A stretch of 35,018 nt of DNA, from positions 1 to 35,018 of the forward strand of contig JASBUK010000142.1 in NCBI GenBank assembly GCA_030147925.1. The letters are read 5' to 3'. Both the position numbers and the translations under genes were made by a program. Position 1 is the first letter of the stretch, and the number at the start of each line of letters is the position of its first letter. The DNA is from Trueperaceae bacterium. Lineage in GTDB: Bacteria; Deinococcota; Deinococci; Deinococcales; Trueperaceae. The notes beneath the pieces are model-generated. The model did no database searches, was not told where the DNA came from, and saw only the letters and a program-made list of their open reading frames with translations. Of the stretch, positions 2,961 through 17,657 are shown piece by piece.

Positions 2961-5900
2961 TTACGACACTTTTTCCAACCTCACCCGGGTGTCAAAAAAG
3001 CTGGCGCTGCCACCGATGGGATCAGTTAGGCAGACATTGCCCAAGGCCGGATCGAGACGCATGGCCGGGTTTGGACAAAGGCCGGTACCGCGCCGTTTAT
3101 CACCCTTTATCATCTGTCCGTCCACCTCTACGCTCCGAGAACCGTAGGCCCAGTGGCCATAATGCCAGGAAACAGCCACCACGCCTGGCCGGATGCCCTC
3201 AATGACTTTGACCTTGCCTTCTACCTCGTCCTGCTGGTTGTTGCCCAAGTCAATGATGCCGGTAGAACTGGCTGATACCAGACGTACGATGTCGCCCGTT
3301 CTAAAACCATGTTTGCGGGCGTCAACACTATTGATCAGCACTGGATTTTCTGGCAAGATACTTATCTGGCCCCAATACTGGCCGGGGGTACGGGAATGCC
3401 CACCGGTAATCTCCTTGTGGGTAATCAGTTGGAAGGGGAATTCGTTGGGATCATCCTCAACCGGCTTACCGGCGGCATCCAGTACCGGCTCTAAGTGAGG
3501 CAGCGGGTCGAAGTTTTGACCGGTTAAACTGTGCTTGGCTTGCCCTACGGGCTCGACATAGAAGAACAGTTGCCGGGCAATTGCACTTTTGATGTAGTCT
3601 CCGCTGTATGCCTGATCGAAGGTCTTGAAGCGACCTCCCCGATTGAGCATATAGACCAGTTGCCGCCACAGTTTCTCGTCGCTGCCGAGGGCTTCTTTCC
3701 ATTTACGCTCATCGTATACGGATGGGGGTAGATGGGCGTGAGCCTGCTGGAAGACAAGCATTTCTTCTTCGCTTGCCTCGGGAACGCCGTCCGAACCGTC
3801 ACTCTTATCACCGTAGGCGATGTTTGCACCTAGCCTGATGAAGTAATCTTCGGGGCGATCAAAATTACCATGATCGCCAAAGCCTCCTGGGCCAATGCCG
3901 GGCATGCCTAGCTGTTTGCCGACGGCAATCATAAATGCCTCAAGGCTGATGGGCATATCTTCGCCATCAACATTCACCACTTCCGTGAGTGGCGCGATGG
4001 TGGGTTGGCGGAAGGGGCTGTAACCAACAACGGGTTGTGGCACGGTGTGTGGCGTGCCCCAGCGCTCTAAGTAACTCAAGTCGGGGATGATGTAATCAGC
4101 GTACATGCTGGTCTCGCCAATGACCACATCGCAAGCCAGCAGCAGAGGAACTTTGTCATGGTCTAACAGCACCCGAATATTGTCTTGCCCGGCAGGGCTG
4201 GCCAAGGCGGGTGTGCCCATATGGATAAGCAGGGCCTTGATCGAGTAGGGATAGCCATCCTCCGCGCTTGGTATGACTTCCTGATAGACATTGCCGGTAA
4301 AGGGATACCAGGGCCGTTTGGCCGGATAACCATCCCGAGTAAAGAGCGTGCTGTCTTCGTACTTCACTTTTTCGCGTGTCAGTGGCGGTCCAAAAGCCTT
4401 TAATCCACCTGGGGCGTTTAACGTAACTTCCGGCGGGAAAGGGCCGCCTTTGTCGCCAAACTCATGCCAGTGGCCACCATCGGCACCGAGGCCACCCTTC
4501 CAGTCCATGTTGCCGATTAGCCAGCAGAGGCTTAGGGCGGCTTGTTGTGCATAGTAGCCGTCGGTGTGCTGAACCGGGCCGCGATAAGTATCGATGGCGG
4601 CCTTTTTGCCGTGACTGGTGAATTCATCTGCTAAGCGCGTGATTTGACGCAGGGAAACCCCTGAGCGCTCGACGTATTCATCAAGCGTTTTTTCCATCAC
4701 CCTGGCTTTGTAAAGCGAGAACACGGTCTTTACGGAAATACCGGCAAGATCGCCTTCCCATTCAAGCAAGCCGTGATCGGCGTTGCCGGCTGCTTGAGGA
4801 CCACTAGAAGTCATCACCACGTAATCGGTATTTTCCAGGCTAAAGTCTGGAATACCGAAATCTTCGGCAGGATGCGGCGGATGGGCTATTTCGGACGCTG
4901 GGATTTCTACGGGCGGAGCCGGCTGTACACCCAGCGAAGCTATGTCCGCCACGCGCAGGAACTTGCCATTGTCCTGACGCACCAAGAAGCTGGCATCGGT
5001 CCAACTTTTTTCGCCGTCATTCTCGGCGGCCAGCTTGTTGGGATTACCAAGAAAAGTCTTATCATGACGGTCGTTCTCAATGATCCAGCGTGCCATTGCC
5101 ATGGCCAGGGCCATATCTCCCCCAGGCCTTACGGGTACCCAGAGGTCAGCTTTGGCTGCGGTTTTGCTGAGACGCGGGTCGATGACCGCTTGCCGAAGAT
5201 TACCTTGCGTCATGCCGTCGGTAACGAGTTGTGTGATAGCCGTCGAGCCGAAATTAGCCTCAAAAGCACCGGTTCCCCAGTGAATGACGAACTCGGCGTT
5301 TAGGTAATCTGGTTTGAGGTGAGTCTTTTTGCCGCTGGTCATCTGCTGGGTGGCGATGTGGTGGCTCTGCTCGCAGATGGTAGTGTGCTCGAAGAAGTTG
5401 ATCGAGCCAAAACCATCTTTGGTCCAGCGTTTGCCAAGCTCCTTGCGTCCGTGCTGAATGCGGCCTGCCTGGAAGACAAACTGATTGTTCTTTGGCCCTA
5501 AATCCGGGTGATCAGGGTCAATGAGCATGTCTAAATGATCAGCATGTTTGGCCTTGAATGCGCTCAGGGACATGTCTCCCTTGGCGACAGCCTTGGCGTC
5601 ATCGGCCAGCAGCTTTGATAAAGCCGAATCCCGAAGAACGAAAATGTCTTGTAGGCCGGGAGTGCTGGTCCCGTCGGGAAAGTTAGCACCATTGACTATC
5701 TCGTCAATAGCCTGATTGAAGTCAAGGCTCCGCCACTTATTCTCGCCGCGCTTGCCGTCCCGTTTTAGAACACGCCGGATACGGTAGGGGTCATAAGCAA
5801 TCTGAATGCCGGCCTGGCCCTTCGGGCAAATCTTGCCGTCAACGTTGGCGGCATCGCTAAGTGACGTGTCGTAAGGCAGATTAGGGAGATTATTAACCGC

Positions 5901-6284
5901 CGCAAAGGGGTTGCCGTCAATCTTGACTGCAATACCCTCGAACAGTTTGACCTTAATTAGGCACTTTACGTGACAGTTAAGACAGACGCTATGCAGGATG
6001 TTTTCGGGTTTATTGAGCGGATATTCGACAAATTCACCGCTTTGCAAGCCGCCATCGGTGATGTCGCCCACTCTGGCCATTGCTAGTGGTAACTGGGTGC
6101 TTAAGAGCGCGGTTCCGCCTACGAAAGCCGAGGTCTTAATAAAGTCACGTCGGCTCAGCTCGGAATTAAAGATGCCCTTTTCAACGCACGGAGATGGCCG
6201 CTCATCATGACTAGATGATTTGGCTGGCGACTCGGAGTGCTCGAGCCCCGACTTATCCGGGCCCTTGAATTTGAATTCTTTCAT
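2961..6284 (-). CDS. Molybdopterin oxidoreductase catalytic subunit (TtrA/SrdA/ArrA-like), Tat-exported
   Basis: This 1107-residue protein belongs to the DMSO-reductase superfamily and is the catalytic subunit of a three-part periplasmic reductase. Residues 43-70 form a twin-arginine signal (LSRRDFIKTSAF, then a hydrophobic stretch and AMA) after a 42-residue polar extension. The [4Fe-4S] site is C101-x2-C104-x3-C108 and C153 in CPKG. C304 in TTICEQSHH is a candidate molybdenum ligand. DPRLSKTAAKADLWVPVRPG is the usual pterin-binding segment, and the C-terminus ends in a molydopterin-binding domain (GGHSRTPGQYWG). The B-C-A order and the length fit tetrathionate, selenate or large archaeal-type arsenate reductases. 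The substrate is not resolved. The start has a perfect AAGGAGGTGATC site that lies inside the end of the NrfD gene. Confidence 0.85.
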   Translation of the reverse strand: MKEFKFKGPDKSGLEHSESPAKSSSHDERPSPCVEKGIFNSELSRRDFIKTSAFVGGTALLSTQLPLAMARVGDITDGGLQSGEFVEYPLNKPENILHSVCLNCHVKCLIKVKLFEGIAVKIDGNPFAAVNNLPNLPYDTSLSDAANVDGKICPKGQAGIQIAYDPYRIRRVLKRDGKRGENKWRSLDFNQAIDEIVNGANFPDGTSTPGLQDIFVLRDSALSKLLADDAKAVAKGDMSLSAFKAKHADHLDMLIDPDHPDLGPKNNQFVFQAGRIQHGRKELGKRWTKDGFGSINFFEHTTICEQSHHIATQQMTSGKKTHLKPDYLNAEFVIHWGTGAFEANFGSTAITQLVTDGMTQGNLRQAVIDPRLSKTAAKADLWVPVRPGGDMALAMAMARWIIENDRHDKTFLGNPNKLAAENDGEKSWTDASFLVRQDNGKFLRVADIASLGVQPAPPVEIPASEIAHPPHPAEDFGIPDFSLENTDYVVMTSSGPQAAGNADHGLLEWEGDLAGISVKTVFSLYKARVMEKTLDEYVERSGVSLRQITRLADEFTSHGKKAAIDTYRGPVQHTDGYYAQQAALSLCWLIGNMDWKGGLGADGGHWHEFGDKGGPFPPEVTLNAPGGLKAFGPPLTREKVKYEDSTLFTRDGYPAKRPWYPFTGNVYQEVIPSAEDGYPYSIKALLIHMGTPALASPAGQDNIRVLLDHDKVPLLLACDVVIGETSMYADYIIPDLSYLERWGTPHTVPQPVVGYSPFRQPTIAPLTEVVNVDGEDMPISLEAFMIAVGKQLGMPGIGPGGFGDHGNFDRPEDYFIRLGANIAYGDKSDGSDGVPEASEEEMLVFQQAHAHLPPSVYDERKWKEALGSDEKLWRQLVYMLNRGGRFKTFDQAYSGDYIKSAIARQLFFYVEPVGQAKHSLTGQNFDPLPHLEPVLDAAGKPVEDDPNEFPFQLITHKEITGGHSRTPGQYWGQISILPENPVLINSVDARKHGFRTGDIVRLVSASSTGIIDLGNNQQDEVEGKVKVIEGIRPGVVAVSWHYGHWAYGSRSVEVDGQMIKGDKRRGTGLCPNPAMRLDPALGNVCLTDPIGGSASFFDTRVRLEKVS

Positions 6285-6285
6285 G

Positions 6286-7521
6286 CTAGATCACCTCCTT
6301 TTGACCACGCACAACGGGTAGCAAGTTATAGCCAATGAGGAATAACAAACCTGCTAGCGAAACGACCCAGACGAAGAAAAGCCACTCCATCGTGCTTGGG
6401 AAATAGTCGAAGTTTAGACCAGGGCCGGTAAAAGCCTCTCGTAAGCCCTCCAATTCGCTCACTGCCAGCCCGGGAACGACGATATTGAGACGCACTGAGA
6501 TAAAGGTGATGGCGATAAGGGCACTGGCGGTGGCGATGGCCCCAACAGAACGCCCTCGAAAGGTCAGCAAAATGAGCGGTACGACCACCCCCAAGCCCAG
6601 GTGAATTATCCAGAAAACCCACCAGAAGTTGCCAAACAACACCAGGCGTAAGCTCGCGGCCTCAGCCGGGATTGAAGAATATAAACCAATGGAATACTCT
6701 GCCCACTCCAGCAACACGTCAAAGGCCAGCAGACCCAGCACAATCTGCCCCATGAAGATAAGCAAGTCCTTACGCTCTTTGGCGTTATTATTAGGTCCCC
6801 AGAAGGCAGTGATAAAAGTAAGCAAGGCCCCACCAGATGCCAAAGCACCGATAAGGAAGGTGATGGGTGTAAGCCCACTGTTCCAGTAGGGTCTGGCACC
6901 GACTACGCCAAAGAGCGCACCGACACCACCGTGGAAGGCCACCGCCAGGGGCACGCCAATGGTTCCCAGGATTCGCAAAACTCTATGGTCCTGCGCTACT
7001 GCCTGCTCGGAAATATCCTTACGTCCAAAACTAAGGAAGCGACAGAGCGCACCCTTGAAGCCGGGTTCATTGCCACAGACAGCCAGGTCGCGCCGCATGG
7101 CAAACCACAGCTCGAGCACCAGCAACACAAAGTAAGACGAGTAGAGCCAGGCCATCCAACCCATCATTGAGCGGAAGTTAGTGCGGGCTATTAAGCGCCA
7201 GGCTCGCAGCGGTTGGCCCAAGTCCAACCAGATGAGGAACATGGCGGCTATCAGGGTTATCAGCGCGGTAAACAGTGACAGTTTGCCAATTTTTTCAAGA
7301 CGTTTGACACGAAAGACATAAACTAAAGTTGAAAGCAAGAAGGCACCGGCTGACAGACCGATGAAATAAATATAACCGGCTACCCACAGACCCCAAGGGA
7401 CGTAGGAACCGTAGTTGGCGGCTTCGTGGCCGACCGTCAAGAACTGGTACAGGCCCACCAAGCCAACTAAAAAGCCAATGATGGCAATGATCCAGGCAAT
7501 TCGCTGCATAGTTTTGCCCAT
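6286..7521 (-). CDS. NrfD/PsrC/TtrC-like membrane anchor and quinol dehydrogenase subunit
   Basis: This 411-residue polytopic protein has about ten predicted membrane helices and belongs to the NrfD/PsrC family. Such subunits oxidise quinol in the membrane and pass electrons to a four-cluster Fe-S subunit. Recognisable family features are the N-terminal helix followed by YGSYVPWGLWVAGYIYFIGLSAGAF, the LDLGQPLRAWRL loop, and GWMAWLYSSYFVLLVLEL. It lies between the B gene upstream and the A gene downstream. The A gene's ribosome site is embedded in its final codons, which implies tight translational coupling. Its own start ATG has AAGGAGG about ten bases upstream; a second ATG is four codons on. 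There are no heme-ligand signatures, as expected for this family. Confidence 0.88.
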   Translation of the reverse strand: MGKTMQRIAWIIAIIGFLVGLVGLYQFLTVGHEAANYGSYVPWGLWVAGYIYFIGLSAGAFLLSTLVYVFRVKRLEKIGKLSLFTALITLIAAMFLIWLDLGQPLRAWRLIARTNFRSMMGWMAWLYSSYFVLLVLELWFAMRRDLAVCGNEPGFKGALCRFLSFGRKDISEQAVAQDHRVLRILGTIGVPLAVAFHGGVGALFGVVGARPYWNSGLTPITFLIGALASGGALLTFITAFWGPNNNAKERKDLLIFMGQIVLGLLAFDVLLEWAEYSIGLYSSIPAEAASLRLVLFGNFWWVFWIIHLGLGVVVPLILLTFRGRSVGAIATASALIAITFISVRLNIVVPGLAVSELEGLREAFTGPGLNFDYFPSTMEWLFFVWVVSLAGLLFLIGYNLLPVVRGQKEVI

Positions 7522-7539: not shown

Positions 7540-8268
7540 TTAAACCAGGTAGTAGACCTTAGGCTCTGTGCCCATTTCTTCTTTTAAGCGAATAGCGTTT
7601 GTCTGCGGGATAAGTTCTGAGACTAAGCTATCGGGATCGTTGGCATCGCCAAAATAATTGGCCATGCCGATACAGGTGGTCACACAAGCGGGCAGTTCGC
7701 CTTGCTCGAGCCGGTGCAAGCAAAAGTGGCATTTGCGCACATTGCCGATTGGCGAGCCGTCGTCGCGCGGCCAGGCCTTGCCGTACTCGAAACTGGCCGT
7801 CATTTCGTATTCGAACTGCTCCGGCGTGTCGTCATCATAGTTGCGTCCCGTATCAAAGGTGCGGGCGCTATAGGGGCAGGCGGCAATACAGTAACGGCAA
7901 CCGATACACTGCTCGTAGTCGATTTCGACAATGCCATCCGCCCGTTTCCAGGTGGCATTCACCGGGCAGACAGGTACACAGGGTGGATTATCACACTGCA
8001 TACAGGGTCTTGGGATGAAGCGCCGGGTCACGTTTGGATATGTCCCGATTTCTTCTTCAAGCACAGGCCGATAGACAACGCCGGGGGGCAGCTTGTTTTC
8101 GGCTATACACGAAACTGTGCAGGCGCTGCAACCGACGCACTTGCGCAAGTCGATCACCATCACCCAATGCCGCTCACTTACTGGCTTTTTTAGCGCCCGT
8201 TTGATGTCTTCTTGCATTCGTAAGATGACATTTTCTTGCTTTAATGCCTCTAATAATACTTCGGGCAT
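7540..8268 (-). CDS. Four-cluster [4Fe-4S] electron-transfer subunit (TtrB/PsrB/DmsB-like)
   Basis: This 242-residue protein has sixteen cysteines in four complete motifs: C44/47/50/54, C89/92/97/101, C121/124/127/131 and C180/183/195/199. It passes electrons from the NrfD-type subunit to the molybdopterin subunit. It has no Tat or Sec signal, so it would be exported as a passenger with the Tat-signalled A subunit, as is known for this family. It is the first gene of the B-C-A-ferredoxin operon, and its start has GGGAGGTGA at good spacing. The 308 bases upstream hold the terminator of the preceding regulator gene and an imperfect tandem repeat. They are the likely site of promoter and activator binding for the whole reductase operon. 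Confidence 0.9.
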
Positions 8269-8477
8269 CCTTTCACCTCCCTTAATGGATTCCTAAACAG
8301 TTAGAGGACAATGACCTTTAGCCATCATCCCCTTTGCAACTACGGCAGGTGACAGCGTTTCCACCGGCACCCTAGCGGCCTGACTACCTTGGGCTGATGC
8401 CCGTAGGTGATTAGGCTCGGGGTCTGTACAATATCCACAAACATCGTAGCGCACAGAAAGTATGTCTGGTAGAGGGA

Positions 8478-12590: not shown

Positions 12591-12823
12591 CTTTACTCCC
12601 TTTCACAGCCTTAGCGGGCTGGCTCGAGCCCGTAATACTTGCCCATAGCTAATGTCTGTCGCGCGTTAAACCTAACGAGATAATGCAGTAGAGCCTTCTG
12701 CAACAAATACCCCTAAATTTGGGGTATATTTAAGCATAAATAATTACAGCCCTATTGTCAAGACCAAACTTGCACGTAACTGTTTCTTTGTGCTTTACTT
12801 TTAGGCACCACTTGCAAGAGTGG
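12591..12823. promoter_or_regulatory. Divergent promoter region between DUF6504 and the met riboswitch
   Basis: This AT-rich stretch must hold the promoters of both neighbours. A seven-pair inverted repeat, ATACCCC and GGGGTAT (12707-12727, loop TAAATTT), could be an operator or a terminator-like hairpin. A weak candidate for the met promoter is TTGCAC followed 18 bases later by TTTACT, just before the riboswitch. I could not confirm either. Confidence 0.35.
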
Positions 12824-12950
12824 CTCTTATCGAGAGCGGCCCAGGGACCTGGCCCAATGACGCCGCAGCAACCAGCCTTCATCTAGGCGGGTGCTAAATC
12901 CAGCCGCAAGGCCAAGGCTACGATAGCCTGGCCAGCCGGAAAGATAGGGG
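12824..12950 (+). ncRNA. SAM-I (S-box) riboswitch aptamer
   Basis: The sequence has the conserved S-box landmarks in order: CTCTTATCGAGAG at the start, the GGGACCTGGCCCAATGA core, CGCAGCAACC, GTGCTAAATCC, and GGAAAGATAGGGG at the end. The closing helix P1 pairs CTCTTATC (12824-12831) with GATAGGGG (12943-12950), using G-U wobbles. It binds S-adenosylmethionine and lowers expression of methionine genes. It lies upstream of metY-metX, the expected target. No U-tract terminator follows. The downstream sequence instead fits a translational switch: AGGGGC (12946-12951) can pair with GCCTCT (12959-12964), which excludes P1. Confidence 0.95.
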
Positions 12951-13002
12951 CGTAACATGCCTCTTTAGATAAGCCTTGGGAAAAGGCGGAGATTTGGAGG
13001 CA
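12946..13002 (+). promoter_or_regulatory. Riboswitch expression platform: antisequestor and Shine-Dalgarno sequestor
   Basis: TGCCTC (12958-12963) can pair with GAGGCA (12997-13002), enclosing an inner GCCTT/AAGGC hairpin. This buries the GGAGG ribosome site at 12996-13000. The same GCCTCT can pair instead with AGGGGC (12946-12951), which overlaps the 3' side of P1. With SAM bound, P1 forms, GCCTC is free and the ribosome site is hidden. Without SAM, the antisequestor forms and the site is exposed. These pairings are visible in the sequence; their use in the cell is inferred. Confidence 0.6.
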
Positions 13003-13005
13003 GAT

Positions 13006-13071
13006 ATGAATCTTTCTATACCCCTATTTAATCTGATTAATCTGACCAGGCGAATGTCTGTTGCCGCTTAG
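13006..13071 (+). CDS. 21-codon leader ORF between the SAM riboswitch and metY
   Basis: This short ORF starts at ATG 13006 with a strong GGAGG five bases upstream and ends with TAG at 13071. The product is hydrophobic at first (MNLSIPLFNLINL) and then basic (TRRMSVAA). Its ribosome site is the one that the riboswitch platform appears to hide, so the switch seems to act on this ORF first and on metY, 75 bases downstream, only indirectly. It has one internal methionine codon near its end, which is not a convincing attenuator run. It may be a leader peptide whose translation protects the mRNA, or a real small protein. Between its stop and metY is an imperfect hairpin (CGCTTAG/CTATAGCG). Confidence 0.5.
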   Translation: MNLSIPLFNLINLTRRMSVAA

Positions 13072-13146
13072 GCTTCTATAGCGTTATTAGTTATATATTC
13101 GTCTTTAACAGCAGATATCCAGCTTTTTTATTTCTAAGGAGCAGAC

Positions 13147-14421
13147 ATGACTTACCGTTTTGAAACCTTGCAAGTTCACGCCGGGCAAACCGTCGATCCC
13201 AGCAGCAGGGCTCGAGCCGTACCCATTTACGCTACCAGCAGTTATGTTTTTGACAGCGCCGAACATGCGGCGGCGCTTTTTGCCGGTGAATTAGAGGGCA
13301 ACCAGTATGGACGGATGCACAATCCCACCGTCGCAGCCTTTACCGAGCGCTTGCTGGCTCTAGAAGCTGGCAGTGCCGGTCTGGCGCTTAGCTCCGGACA
13401 GGCGGCCAGCACCACCGCATTGCTGGCTTTGGCTTCACCCGGAGCGCAGATAGTTTTTTCCAACGAGCTTTTTGGCGGTACTTTTAGCATCGCCAGAAAG
13501 ATTTTAGAACCCTGGGGCTGTGGCGTTAGCACCGCTGCTCCCACCATGGAAGCAATTACTGACGCCGTTCAGGACAACACCGTCGCCGTCTGGCTTGAAA
13601 CAATTGCCAACCCAAGCTGCACTGTACCCGATCTTGCCGCTATCGCCGCTCTTTGCCAAGAAAGGCAGATTCCCCTGATAGTGGACAATACCTGGGGTTG
13701 CGGTGGCTACCTTTGCCAGCCACTAACACATGGCGCCGATATCGTGATTCACTCGGCGACAAAGTGGATTGGTGGACACGGCAGCTTTATCGGCGGCGCG
13801 ATCATTGATGGCGGCGGCTTTGACTGGGCTAATGCCAAATTTCCCGCTATGCAAAGTTTAGACAGCCGGGGACGAAGCTACCTGACCAGGGCCGAGAAAA
13901 AACCAGGTCAAACTGCCTTTAGCCTGCGTGCTTATGATCTGGGCCTTTTCACTATGGGCATGACCTTATCGCCCTATGCAGCCTTTTTAGGGTTGCAGGG
14001 TCTAGAGACTCTCTCGTTAAGGGTGCAGCGGCAGTGTGATACGGCCCTTGAACTAGCACAGTGGCTCGAGCAGCAAGATGCAGTAAAACGGGTGATCTAT
14101 CCGGGATTACCCTCACACCCTTCGCATGAAACGGCCAAAAAGATGCTAAGACATGGTTTTGGTGCTGTTTTGAGCTTTGAGGCTAAAGATACGGCTACGG
14201 CGCGGCAGTTTTTAGATCGGGTCGAGTTAGCCTCGCACTTAGCCAATATCGGCGATGCCAAAACGGTGGTGATAAACCCCTGGACTACCACCCACGCCAG
14301 CTTAAACGACGAGGCCAAACGCGAGGCCGGTGTGAGTCCGGAGCTTATTCGCGTCAGTGTCGGGCTTGAGGACCCGGCGGATCTAAGGCTTGATTTTGCT
14401 CGAGCCTTACAAGGAGCTTGA
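13147..14421 (+). CDS. metY: O-acetylhomoserine sulfhydrylase (MetY)
   Basis: This 424-residue PLP enzyme of the Cys/Met metabolism family makes homocysteine from O-acetylhomoserine and sulfide, in the cytoplasm. The PLP lysine is K206 in HSATKWIGGHG. Other family features are YGRMHNPT, the SSGQAA phosphate-binding turn, VDNTWGCGGYL, and the C-terminal LIRVSVGLEDPADL. The length is typical of MetY and greater than that of cystathionine gamma-synthase. The usual NTF after the cofactor aspartate is NTW here. AAGGAG at 13136-13141 sets the start. It is first in a metY-metX operon downstream of a SAM riboswitch, and its partner supplies the acetylated substrate. Confidence 0.95.
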   Translation: MTYRFETLQVHAGQTVDPSSRARAVPIYATSSYVFDSAEHAAALFAGELEGNQYGRMHNPTVAAFTERLLALEAGSAGLALSSGQAASTTALLALASPGAQIVFSNELFGGTFSIARKILEPWGCGVSTAAPTMEAITDAVQDNTVAVWLETIANPSCTVPDLAAIAALCQERQIPLIVDNTWGCGGYLCQPLTHGADIVIHSATKWIGGHGSFIGGAIIDGGGFDWANAKFPAMQSLDSRGRSYLTRAEKKPGQTAFSLRAYDLGLFTMGMTLSPYAAFLGLQGLETLSLRVQRQCDTALELAQWLEQQDAVKRVIYPGLPSHPSHETAKKMLRHGFGAVLSFEAKDTATARQFLDRVELASHLANIGDAKTVVINPWTTTHASLNDEAKREAGVSPELIRVSVGLEDPADLRLDFARALQGA

Positions 14422-14425
14422 AATT

Positions 14426-15601
14426 GTGATCAAACGAACGCTGGTTCATGAGACTTGGGGTGACCACGCGGCGCTGTTGGCGCGCGGTCAAACGGATACT
14501 GTTGGTAGCGTTGGAGTAGTGGTTCCACAGGTAGTGGATATAGCTACGCCGACCACACCGCTTGTTTTACAATATGGCGCTACTCTTGAGCATGTGGCGG
14601 TGGCCTATGAAACCTATGGCGAGCTTAACTCCCAGGGAGATAATGCCATTTTGATCTGTCATGCACTGACCGGCTCGGCACATGCCGCCGGAGCTCACGA
14701 TAAACAACAAGTACCCGGTTGGTGGGACCCGTTGATCGGTCCGGGCAAGCCGATTGACAGCAACGAGTATTTTGTGATTTCAAGCAATGTCCTGGGCGGT
14801 TGTTATGGCAGCACCGGGCCAAGCAGCATCAATCCTGTCAGCGGCAGACCCTACCGCTTGAGTTTTCCGCGCTACACCATCCGCGATATGGTGATGGTGC
14901 AAAAGCGCCTCCTGGACAAGCTGGGTGTGACCTCGCTAAAAGCCGTCATTGGCGGCAGCATGGGGGGGATGCAGGTGCTCGAATGGGCGGCAATGTATCC
15001 CGAGCAGGTACGCAGCATCATTCCCATTGGCATTGGTGCGCGGCACTCGGCCTGGGCGATTGGCCTCAATGAAGTGGCCCGCCGAGCGATTACCAGCGAT
15101 CCCAACTGGCAAAACGGCAATTATCCGCCCGAGCAACAGCCGGATGCAGGTTTGGGTCTGGCCAGGGCTATCGCCATGCTTTCTTATCGTTCGCTGGATT
15201 CGCTGGAGGCCAAATTTGGCCGTGAGCGAGTGAGTGCCTCTCGTGACCTTTTAGGGGTCAGCTTTGAGATCGAGTCCTATTTGTCCTATCAAGGTGTGAA
15301 GCTGGTGCAGCGTTTTGACGCCAATACCTATCTCTATATCACCCGGGCCATGGATGACTATGATTTAGCCGAGGGCAGGGGCCGCCTGGCTGAGGTCTTG
15401 GCCAAGATGACTATGCCGGCTTTGGTGATGGGGATTGATAGCGACGTGCTTTATCCCGAGCAGGAACAAAAACAGCTTGTGGAGATCTTGCCCAGTGCCG
15501 AATATGCGCGCATTTGTTCGCCACACGGTCATGACGCCTTTTTGATTGAGTTTCCGCAGTTGGCCGTGCGCCTGCGGCGTTTTTTAAAGGCCGTTACCTA
15601 G
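14426..15601 (+). CDS. metX: Homoserine O-acetyltransferase (MetX)
   Basis: This 391-residue alpha/beta-hydrolase-fold enzyme transfers acetyl from acetyl-CoA to homoserine, the first committed step of methionine synthesis. The nucleophile is S178 in IGGSMGGMQ; the catalytic aspartate is probably in MGIDSDVLYP and the histidine in SPHGHDAF. It also has the family stretch VVISSNVLGGCYGSTGP in the form FVISSNVLGGCYGS. I chose GTG 14426 because AAGGAG at 14411-14416 precedes it by nine bases and straddles the metY stop; an in-frame TTG at 14390 would add twelve residues inside metY. Acetyl versus succinyl specificity is inferred from the MetY partner. It converges on the ABC ATPase gene with 18 bases between stops. 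Confidence 0.95.
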   Translation: MIKRTLVHETWGDHAALLARGQTDTVGSVGVVVPQVVDIATPTTPLVLQYGATLEHVAVAYETYGELNSQGDNAILICHALTGSAHAAGAHDKQQVPGWWDPLIGPGKPIDSNEYFVISSNVLGGCYGSTGPSSINPVSGRPYRLSFPRYTIRDMVMVQKRLLDKLGVTSLKAVIGGSMGGMQVLEWAAMYPEQVRSIIPIGIGARHSAWAIGLNEVARRAITSDPNWQNGNYPPEQQPDAGLGLARAIAMLSYRSLDSLEAKFGRERVSASRDLLGVSFEIESYLSYQGVKLVQRFDANTYLYITRAMDDYDLAEGRGRLAEVLAKMTMPALVMGIDSDVLYPEQEQKQLVEILPSAEYARICSPHGHDAFLIEFPQLAVRLRRFLKAVT

Positions 15602-15619: not shown

Positions 15620-17161
15620 CTAGGCGTTAGCGCCCTCAGCCAGTTGGGAAAGGCTCGAGCCAGCCATCAGCAGACCCAGTTTTTCGGCGGTGGCTTCCTG
15701 TTGTGAAAGCTCGCCCATAATGCGGCCCTCAAAAAGCACAATGATGCGATCTGAGAGACTCATTACTTCGTTTAAGTCAGCCGAGACCAGCAAAACCGCT
15801 AAGCCCAGATCGCGCGCCCGGATGATTTGTTTGTGGATAAACTCAATGGCGCCAATGTCCACGCCGCGTGTCGGCTGGGAGGCAATCAGGATTTCGGGGT
15901 CGCGCTCGAGCTCGCGCGCGACGATGAGTTTTTGGGCGTTTCCGCCGGAATAGCTTCCTGCTAACACGCTTACAGCTCCCGGGCGCACATCGTAATCTTC
16001 GATGATTTTCTTAGCGTGCGTTTCGATAACCTTGTCGTTGAGAAAGCCGAATCTGCCACTATAAGGTTCATGATAATGGTCGCCCAAAATGCTGTTGGCA
16101 GCGGCATCATAACTGGCGATAAGGCCGCGTTCATAACGGTCTTCGGGAATATGACTCACCCCGGCCTCGCGCACCTTTTTGGCATTGGCATGGCTCATGT
16201 CTTTGCCGTCAATGAATATTTGGCCCGCGTCGATATGGTGCAGCCCAACGATACTTTCTACCAGTTCAGACTGGCCGTTACCGTCAACACCAGCCACCCC
16301 CAGGATTTCTCCGGCGCGAACCTTAAAGGAGACATGATCGACTACAGGCTTGTTCTTAAGCGGGTTAATAACGGTGACATCTTTAAGCTCGAGCTTTACC
16401 CCTTCGGGGCTGGCCAGCTCTTTTTCCACGCTCAAGATCACCTCACGGCCTACCATCATATTGGCAAGCTGGCGCTGGTCGGTTTCTTCGCGGCTAACGG
16501 TGCCAATCATTTGACCGTCACGCATGACGCTCATGCGGTCACAGATTTCCATGACTTCGTCAAGTTTGTGACTGATGAAGATAACGGCGTTGCCCTGTTT
16601 GGCAAAGTCACGCACGAACTGAAACAGGCCCCTGGTTTCCTGTGGTGTCAGCACCGCAGTAGGTTCGTCCATGATGAGGATGCGGGCGTCCCTGTAAAGG
16701 GTTTTGAGGATTTCCACTTGTTGTTGCAGACCTACGGGCAGATCTTCTATTTTGGTGTCCGGGTCAATATCAAAGCCGAACTGCGCGATTAGCTGCCGCG
16801 CTTTGTTTTTAGCGGTGCGATAATCTAAAGTAGGCCCTAAATGGGGTTCTGAACCCAGCACGAGATTTTCGGTCACGGTCAAAGGTTCCACCAGCATAAA
16901 GTGTTGATGCACCATGCCTATGCCGTGGTCAATGGCGGCTCGAGCCGATTTCATTTGCACTTCTTGGCCGTCGATAAAGATTTTTCCTTCATCGGGTTGA
17001 TAAAGCCCGTAGAGAATCTTCATGAGCGTGGACTTGCCCGCGCCGTTTTCACCAATTAGGGCATGTACCTCGCCCCAATTGACTTCGAAATTGACGTGGT
17101 CGTTGGCAAGCACCAAAGGAAAGCGCTTGACGATATCTTTCATGGCAACTGCAGTACCCAT
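15620..17161 (-). CDS. ABC transporter ATPase, duplicated domain (nucleoside/simple-sugar type)
   Basis: This 513-residue protein carries two ABC domains in tandem, as in RbsA and the NupA/YufO-type ATPases of BmpA-dependent nucleoside importers. The first half has [17 protein letters not shown], the Q-loop [17 protein letters not shown] typical of the nucleoside branch, and [14 protein letters not shown]. The second half has a degenerate Walker A ([16 protein letters not shown]) and signature SGGNAQK, as is usual in this family. The reading frame is open much further upstream, into the tmRNA gene. I chose ATG 17161 because a TGTTATACT extended -10 ends seven bases before it, giving a leaderless mRNA, and because homology begins there. 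No permease or binding-protein gene adjoins it, so its partners must be elsewhere. Confidence 0.88.
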
Positions 17162-17168
17162 AGCACTG

Positions 17169-17178
17169 AGTATAACAG
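17169..17178 (-). promoter_or_regulatory. Extended -10 promoter for a leaderless ABC ATPase mRNA
   Basis: On the minus strand TGTTATACT carries the extended TG element and a near-consensus TATACT (17169-17174). Its downstream edge is seven bases from the ATG at 17161, so transcription would begin at or within a base of the start codon. No Shine-Dalgarno sequence precedes the ATG. Leaderless genes with this layout are common in Deinococcota. Confidence 0.6.
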
Positions 17179-17239
17179 TTTGTCTTAAGCGAAAAATCAG
17201 ACTTTCGGCCCGGATAATGCGAGTCATATTGGCCAATTG

Positions 17240-17248
17240 TGCTATAAT
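17240..17248 (+). promoter_or_regulatory. Extended -10 promoter of ssrA
   Basis: TGCTATAAT is a consensus extended -10, 35 bases before the mature tmRNA 5' end. There is no good -35 at normal spacing, which an extended -10 can tolerate. The short precursor leader contains an inverted repeat, GCTGTTAA (17255-17262) and TTAACAGC (17271-17278), which could form a processing hairpin. The promoter diverges from that of the ABC ATPase about 70 bases away. Confidence 0.65.
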
Positions 17249-17283
17249 TAACTTGCTGTTAAGGGCCTCTTTAACAGCTTTAA

Positions 17284-17657
17284 GGGGGTGACCTGGTTTC
17301 GACGGGGTTCGCCGAGGATTTGGTTGCGCGTCGCGGGTGCAGCTGGCCGCGTTAGTAAGCTGCAAAGCCATTAACTGGCAACAATAACAACAGTAGCTTC
17401 GGCTACGCAATGGCTGCTTAATAAACGCAGCTCGCTCGCCAGAAACCTCGCCTGTGGTTCGCTGGTTTGAACGTCATAAAACAGGCTAGCGGCAAGCCTC
17501 TAGTGTCGGGCTAAAGCGAAACCTTTAGACACTTAAGCGCTAGGATTTAGGCGGGTCAACGGGCCTAGCTAGCGTCGACAATCAACCGCTGACTACACGC
17601 GTAGACGCCGGTCCAAAGGAGCTTCGGACGCGGGTTCGACTCCCGCCGCCTCCACCA
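17284..17657 (+). ncRNA. ssrA: Transfer-messenger RNA (tmRNA)
   Basis: This 374-base gene has the tRNA-like ends of one-piece tmRNA. GGGGGTG at the 5' end pairs with CGCCTCC before an encoded ACCA; CTGGTTTCGACGGGG and GGGTTCGACTCCCGCC are the conserved flanks. tmRNA rescues stalled ribosomes and tags the unfinished protein for proteolysis. The tag frame, with GGC at 17377 as the likely resume codon, reads [14 protein letters not shown] and ends in tandem TAA TAA at 17419-17424. The first residues G-N match the Deinococcus pattern; the AMAA end differs from the usual ALAA. The choice of resume codon is inferred. Confidence 0.97.

Follow-up and report, generated by a model that had tools for sequence, protein, structure and literature searches.

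The locus studied here raises the question of what a SAM riboswitch controls when the gene behind it, metY, carries a ribosome binding site of its own. The window, the whole stretch of 35,018 nucleotides of Trueperaceae DNA that was analysed, contains a SAM-I (S-box) aptamer at positions 12824–12950 of the plus strand, with a covariance-model score of 70.9 bits against RF00162 (gathering score 44.4), and this aptamer is the sole one in the genome. Downstream on the same strand lie metY (13147–14421) and metX (14390–15601). The metY product belongs to the O-acetylhomoserine sulfhydrylase family; its match to TIGR01326 scored 484.9 bits, just below the cut-off of 495.1, and in a tree it grouped with the family relatives. 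The homoserine O-acetyltransferase encoded by metX matched NF001209 with 476.3 bits (cut-off 331); the match begins at residue 52, and the true start of metX is probably inside the predicted ORF. No T-box was matched by Rfam at gathering score in the window. Elsewhere in the window, a molybdenum/tungsten cofactor riboswitch (8313–8434, minus strand; RF01055, 77.1 bits) was located just upstream of a ferredoxin, NrfD and molybdopterin oxidoreductase set (7540–8268, 6286–7521 and 2961–6284, minus strand). A tmRNA gene was identified at 17284–17657 on the plus strand (RF00023, 171.1 bits); a minus-strand ORF (15620–17410) enters this gene, so its start has probably been called too far upstream.

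The P1 helix of the SAM-I aptamer joins a 5' strand at 12823–12831 (GCTCTTATC) to a 3' strand at 12943–12951 (GATAGGGGC) by nine pairs (plus strand), and the two strands co-vary in leaders L018 and L092 (GCCTTTATC/GATAGAGGC). Part of the 3' strand, AGGGGC (12946–12951), doubles as the 5' arm of an anti-P1 helix with 12959–12964. The plus-strand segment TGCCTCT (12958–12964) could act either as the 3' arm of that helix in the ON state or, in the OFF state, as the anti-Shine-Dalgarno (anti-SD) strand, with TGCCTC (12958–12963) pairing with GAGGCA (12997–13002). The two helices are mutually exclusive because both use GCCTC. The 3' arm of the anti-SD hairpin, GGAGGCA (12996–13002, plus strand), includes GGAGG (12996–13000), the SD of a short leader ORF, and the predicted fold places a small hairpin, GCCTT...AAGGC (12973–12987, plus strand), within the anti-SD hairpin, where most relatives have inner hairpins of other sequence. 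AGGGGC, TGCCTC and GAGGCA stand, letter for letter, where the initial annotation had put them, and the set of exclusive pairings that it had described, with GCCTC common to anti-P1 and anti-SD, recurred across the family. The competition of P1 with AGGGGC/GCCTCT was kept in relatives, and in 19 type-A leaders the TGCCTCT arm was able to pair with the one partner or the other; SD pairing was weak in L027, L029 and L091. Judged from its sequence, the expression platform is of the translational type. Counting against the model proposed below, the unconstrained fold of the full window leader had the leader ORF SD already masked.

The leader ORF at 13006–13071 (plus strand) is preceded by this SD and has 21 codons (MNLSIPLFNLINLTRRMSVAA) and the stop codon TAG. 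It had been proposed that the hidden SD serves this ORF and not metY, and our analyses confirmed this, as the arrangement recurred in relatives and metY has a separate SD, AAGGAG at 13136–13141 (plus strand). The SD assigned to metY in the initial annotation was correct, but the distance of 75 bases past the ORF stop is that of the start codon; the SD is 64 nt past the stop. A separate metY SD was likewise seen in relatives whose metY start could be read.

Whether the ORF and the pairings are present in relatives had been named as a point on which this reading could fall, so we studied RF00162 matches in 39 genomes of the family, together with relatives in the order, and examined the downstream sequence of each retrieved match. 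Two weak aptamer matches in an incomplete genome (G010) were kept outside the leader counts. All 28 long metY-type SAM-I leaders of this Deinococcota family kept the leader ORF, and in each it was in frame with a CGA-ATG dicodon, found in the window at 13051–13056 (plus strand). A start that follows AGGAG or GGAGG, shares the frame of CGAATG and reads through the motif without a stop was identified in 26 of the 28, the window included, and in none of them (0/28 each) for the other two frames. The two exceptions to the strict SD had a weaker SD (L101) or ACG at the start position (L110). The distance from start to motif ranged from 6 to 135 nt with about 16 distinct values among the 28 leaders, so a common frame would arise by chance with a probability of about 3^-16. 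Since both recur across the family, the ORF and the pairings are not a chance occurrence, and the initial reading withstood this test.

SAM-I leaders of the family standing over 130 nt from metY all belong to the 28-leader set (for L105, the contig stops short of metY). CGAATG was absent from the leaders with a closer metY (L099, L103, L104, L107 and L108) and from the non-metY SAM leaders. Nearly all aptamers found in the order outside this family likewise lacked it, and several of these resemble terminator types. The metY paralogues under direct aptamer control had no leader ORF. More than one kind of platform gates the leader ORF across the family. In five leaders (L023, L090, L017, L019 and L101) its SD lies in or adjoins the P1 3' strand (GATAAGGAGG), so that P1 itself would mask the SD, a different platform with the same target. 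The GGGGC/GCCTC/GGAGG platform was also observed directly on metY in L108 (G028) and on a decayed metY-like reading frame in L111 (G023), without a leader ORF in either. A similar ORF (ERMQV) in leader L121 of G052 had no convincing SD and was taken as a chance occurrence. We also considered the motif as a phylum-wide element and rejected this, as most of 20 pattern matches examined outside known leaders sit in other coding contexts.

The main feature of the leader ORF, which the initial annotation overlooked, is the invariant codon context CGA-ATG-Y. In the 28 leaders found by their aptamer the Arg codon was always CGA, the next codon was always ATG, and the base at +6, immediately after ATG, was C or T in every leader. 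In the metY genes behind these leaders, CGA accounted for only 25 of 618 Arg codons (~4%). The in-frame Met codon after CGA was invariant but single among the 28 leaders; classical attenuators often have several codons of the pathway amino acid. The tRNAs of a single-contig relative (G012), read at all 45 matches, included tRNA-Arg with the anticodons ACG, CCG, TCT and CCT, and tRNA-Arg(UCG/TCG) was not found among them, so that decoding of CGA is expected to rely on an I:A pair, with inosine facing A. In E. coli, decoding at a P-site CGA was reportedly found to be slow (Curran 1995). A P-site CGA is slow in yeast and, in yeast mutants, favours +1 slippage (PMC6301793), and translation through four consecutive CGA codons was unimpeded in B. 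subtilis (PMC10454642); the reported behaviour of CGA decoded by I:A is thus mixed.

Outside Arg-Met the leader peptide drifts: most close pairs gave pN/pS values between 0.45 and 1, and two gave higher ones. These near-neutral residues argue that the codons matter rather than the peptide. A conserved leader peptide, or ribosome-arrest peptide, was accordingly set aside, since for the majority of close pairs pN did not fall clearly below pS, and Arg-Met alone was common to the leaders; relay by the peptide itself, one of the routes first suggested for this leader, is unlikely for the same lack of conservation. A second nucleotide element, GCGGY, was observed at a fixed +12 to +16 from CGA, inside or after the ORF, and neither a hairpin nor the reading frame accounts for it. 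The CGG at +13 to +15 was present in most relatives, even past the ORF stop. In the window this place is occupied by GCCGCT (13063–13068, plus strand), which retains Ala-Ala with codons that differ from the family GCGGY. A hairpin starting 6 nt after the AUG looked conserved by eye and was rejected, as shuffles preserving the 5' part often matched it (6.5% and 33%).

In some leaders the ORF was kept where the aptamer was not. In G011 (L180) the aptamer is gone, and the promoter-like GTGTACT, the SD and an ORF with RRM and CGAATG are kept. In G002 the ORF lies behind a degenerate aptamer for which Rfam gave no match even at E up to 1; the aptamer ahead of it in G022 is weak, scoring 22.5 bits, under the cut-off. 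Because the motif itself led to the cases in G011 and G022, these serve as examples, not as counts. The persistence of the ORF behind lost, degenerate or weak aptamers suggests that it does more than relay SAM.

The spacer between the ORF stop and metY was 75–416 nt at loci with a readable metY, and only in L094 does the ORF reach metY. Translational coupling, also suggested at the outset, is therefore excluded in the form of a stop/start overlap at every such locus save L094. We considered unmasking of the metY SD through leader translation and did not retain it, as folding with the ORF held open left the pairing of that SD unchanged in all but a few leaders, and the changes seen went both ways. 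A search of the window's plus strand from the ORF to metY found no terminator-like site, and no conserved sequence was seen in the spacers of relatives. The spacer was richer in C than in G in most relatives (that of the window's own clade was not C-rich), and Rho was encoded in the four genomes tested. Upstream of the aptamer, a -35-like CTTGCA (12769–12774) and a -10-like TTTACT with TGTGC in front (12794–12799), both on the plus strand and read by eye, could form the leader promoter; an element similar to the latter is kept in G011. A promoter-like pair, CTTGC ... TTTACT/GTACT, was observed about 25–60 nt upstream of the aptamer in L001 and many relatives, and a scan with the sigma-70 consensus did not pick it up. 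In the tree, the leader precedes two metY paralogues, one clade being family-wide and the other comprising the window, G016, G021 and G002. G012 has two metY paralogues in tandem behind its leader (G012:C1:2472403-2475077). Loss of the first copy from such a tandem may have left the second behind the leader, which would explain the paralogue in the window.

Based on these observations, we propose a two-step leader ahead of metY-metX. In the presence of SAM, P1 would take GGGGC, freeing GCCTC to mask the leader ORF SD, so that SAM binding would close the ORF; in its absence GCCTC would pair with GGGGC and the SD would be open. That the SAM-I switch gates initiation on the leader ORF is strongly supported by the comparison of sequences. 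A ribosome admitted in this way would reach CGA-AUG-Y near the end of the ORF and decode CGA via the I:A pair. While CGA occupies the P site, decoding of the Met codon in the A site would be slow, as the yeast work and the E. coli report would lead one to expect, and the dwell time would be set by, and so report, the supply of Met-tRNA. The held ribosome would protect the part of the leader beyond it from Rho or decay, so that this part stays open to transcription, and the position of the ribosome would in this manner be passed to metY, which would then be translated from its own SD. High SAM would stop ribosome loading, ample Met-tRNA would let the ribosome run off, and either would lower metY. 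The invariant CGA followed by a Met codon suggests that two methionine signals are read in succession, and CGA-AUG is probably a programmed slow Met codon that serves as the Met-tRNA sensor. The case for gating and conservation is strong and that for the Met-tRNA sensing step moderate. The whole model, from the SAM-gated ORF through the reading of Met-tRNA at CGA-AUG to the relay to metY, has in our judgement slightly less than an even chance of being correct. We are a little more tentative about a formulation in which the riboswitch admits ribosomes and the I:A-slowed CGA-AUG-Y measures Met-tRNA as a single tuned codon pair, not a run of codons.

Other readings of the same leader were considered. 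The ORF might relay SAM only, by blocking Rho termination or RNA decay, with CGA-AUG-Y a constitutive pause that senses no Met-tRNA. This would draw on the same sequence evidence as the two-step model, Rho is encoded and the spacers are C-rich in most relatives, and a pause site would account for CGA and Y equally well. We nevertheless consider it unlikely, as it leaves unexplained both the invariant Met after CGA in a methionine operon and the persistence of the ORF in G011, which has no aptamer. Conservation at the nucleotide level, with GCGGY kept even after the ORF stop, would fit CGAATGY...GCGGY being an RNA element that is bound by a protein or RNA and merely traversed by the ORF. Such an element would not, however, have to be always in frame with an SD-preceded start across many distances, and the AT-rich member L090 is without GCGGY; this reading is improbable.

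Arrest of the ribosome by a nascent peptide with Arg-Met at its end, triggered by methionine or SAM, would be consistent with the invariance of Arg-Met, often within five codons of the stop, and with the Ala-Ala that the window keeps with different codons. A rule acting on the peptide would permit other Arg codons, yet CGA is invariant, and with flanking residues near-neutral and several leaders lacking Ala-Ala we regard arrest as quite improbable. A programmed +1 frameshift, in which the P-site CGA slips to the overlapping UGY when Met-tRNA is scarce, is highly improbable. The pyrimidine always present at +6 makes the +1 codon always Cys, and P-site CGA promotes +1 slippage in yeast mutants (PMC6301793), but neither the length nor the end of the +1 frame is conserved, and in L022 it stops right after the Cys.

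If the two-step model is correct, a metabolite riboswitch and a ribosome-based amino-acid sensor would act in series on one short ORF, and the tuning of a codon pair, CGA before AUG, would be a natural and conserved bacterial sensor. The evidence from frame, codon and aptamer loss makes the idea directly testable by synonymous changes.

Riboswitch-gated upstream ORFs and the combination of a SAM-I riboswitch with tRNA sensing are each already known; we found no report in the open-access literature of a SAM-I-gated coded leader with a conserved CGA-AUG, of Met-sensing leader peptides or of SAM-I-gated upstream ORFs. In the met operon of Xanthomonas campestris, uncharged tRNA-fMet binds the expression platform of a translational SAM-I riboswitch directly (PMC7270179). 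The present leader resembles it in having a SAM-I aptamer, a sequestered SD, methionine genes and two signals, the second of which is proposed here; it differs in that a ribosome translating the leader ORF would read this second signal, and a word search of the X. campestris report found no mention of a leader ORF.

As with the Mycobacterium tuberculosis B12 riboswitch and uPPE2 (PMC11260477), the switch acts on a short upstream ORF by masking its SD. Here, too, the switch-controlled SD belongs to the upstream ORF (26 of 28 in frame 0), with the metY SD separate. Downstream expression in M. tuberculosis depends on the upstream ORF, through an AUGA overlap with the gene and mainly by termination-reinitiation, and no conserved codon site is described in the sections consulted (PMC11260477). 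In our leaders, by contrast, the relay to metY is our inference, metY has its own SD at 75–416 nt without the overlapping stop and start of ppe2 (the L094 ORF being the sole one to reach metY), and CGA-ATG is invariant.

Amino-acid attenuators and ribosome-arrest leaders such as trp and tnaC are likewise short and translated, precede biosynthetic or related genes and carry a key codon site, and the leader ORF holds, as attenuators do, a codon of the pathway amino acid, its single Met. Unlike in those leaders, no terminator-antiterminator pair was found downstream of the ORF on the plus strand as far as metY in the window, the peptide is unconserved outside Arg-Met, and a SAM switch stands in front. 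The SAM-II riboswitch of Sinorhizobium meliloti metA is of another aptamer class and has no separate leader ORF, its AUG1 and AUG2 being in frame and AUG2 being used, but it resembles the present leader in that the SD of a SAM riboswitch works at a distance on a methionine gene (PMC9373788).
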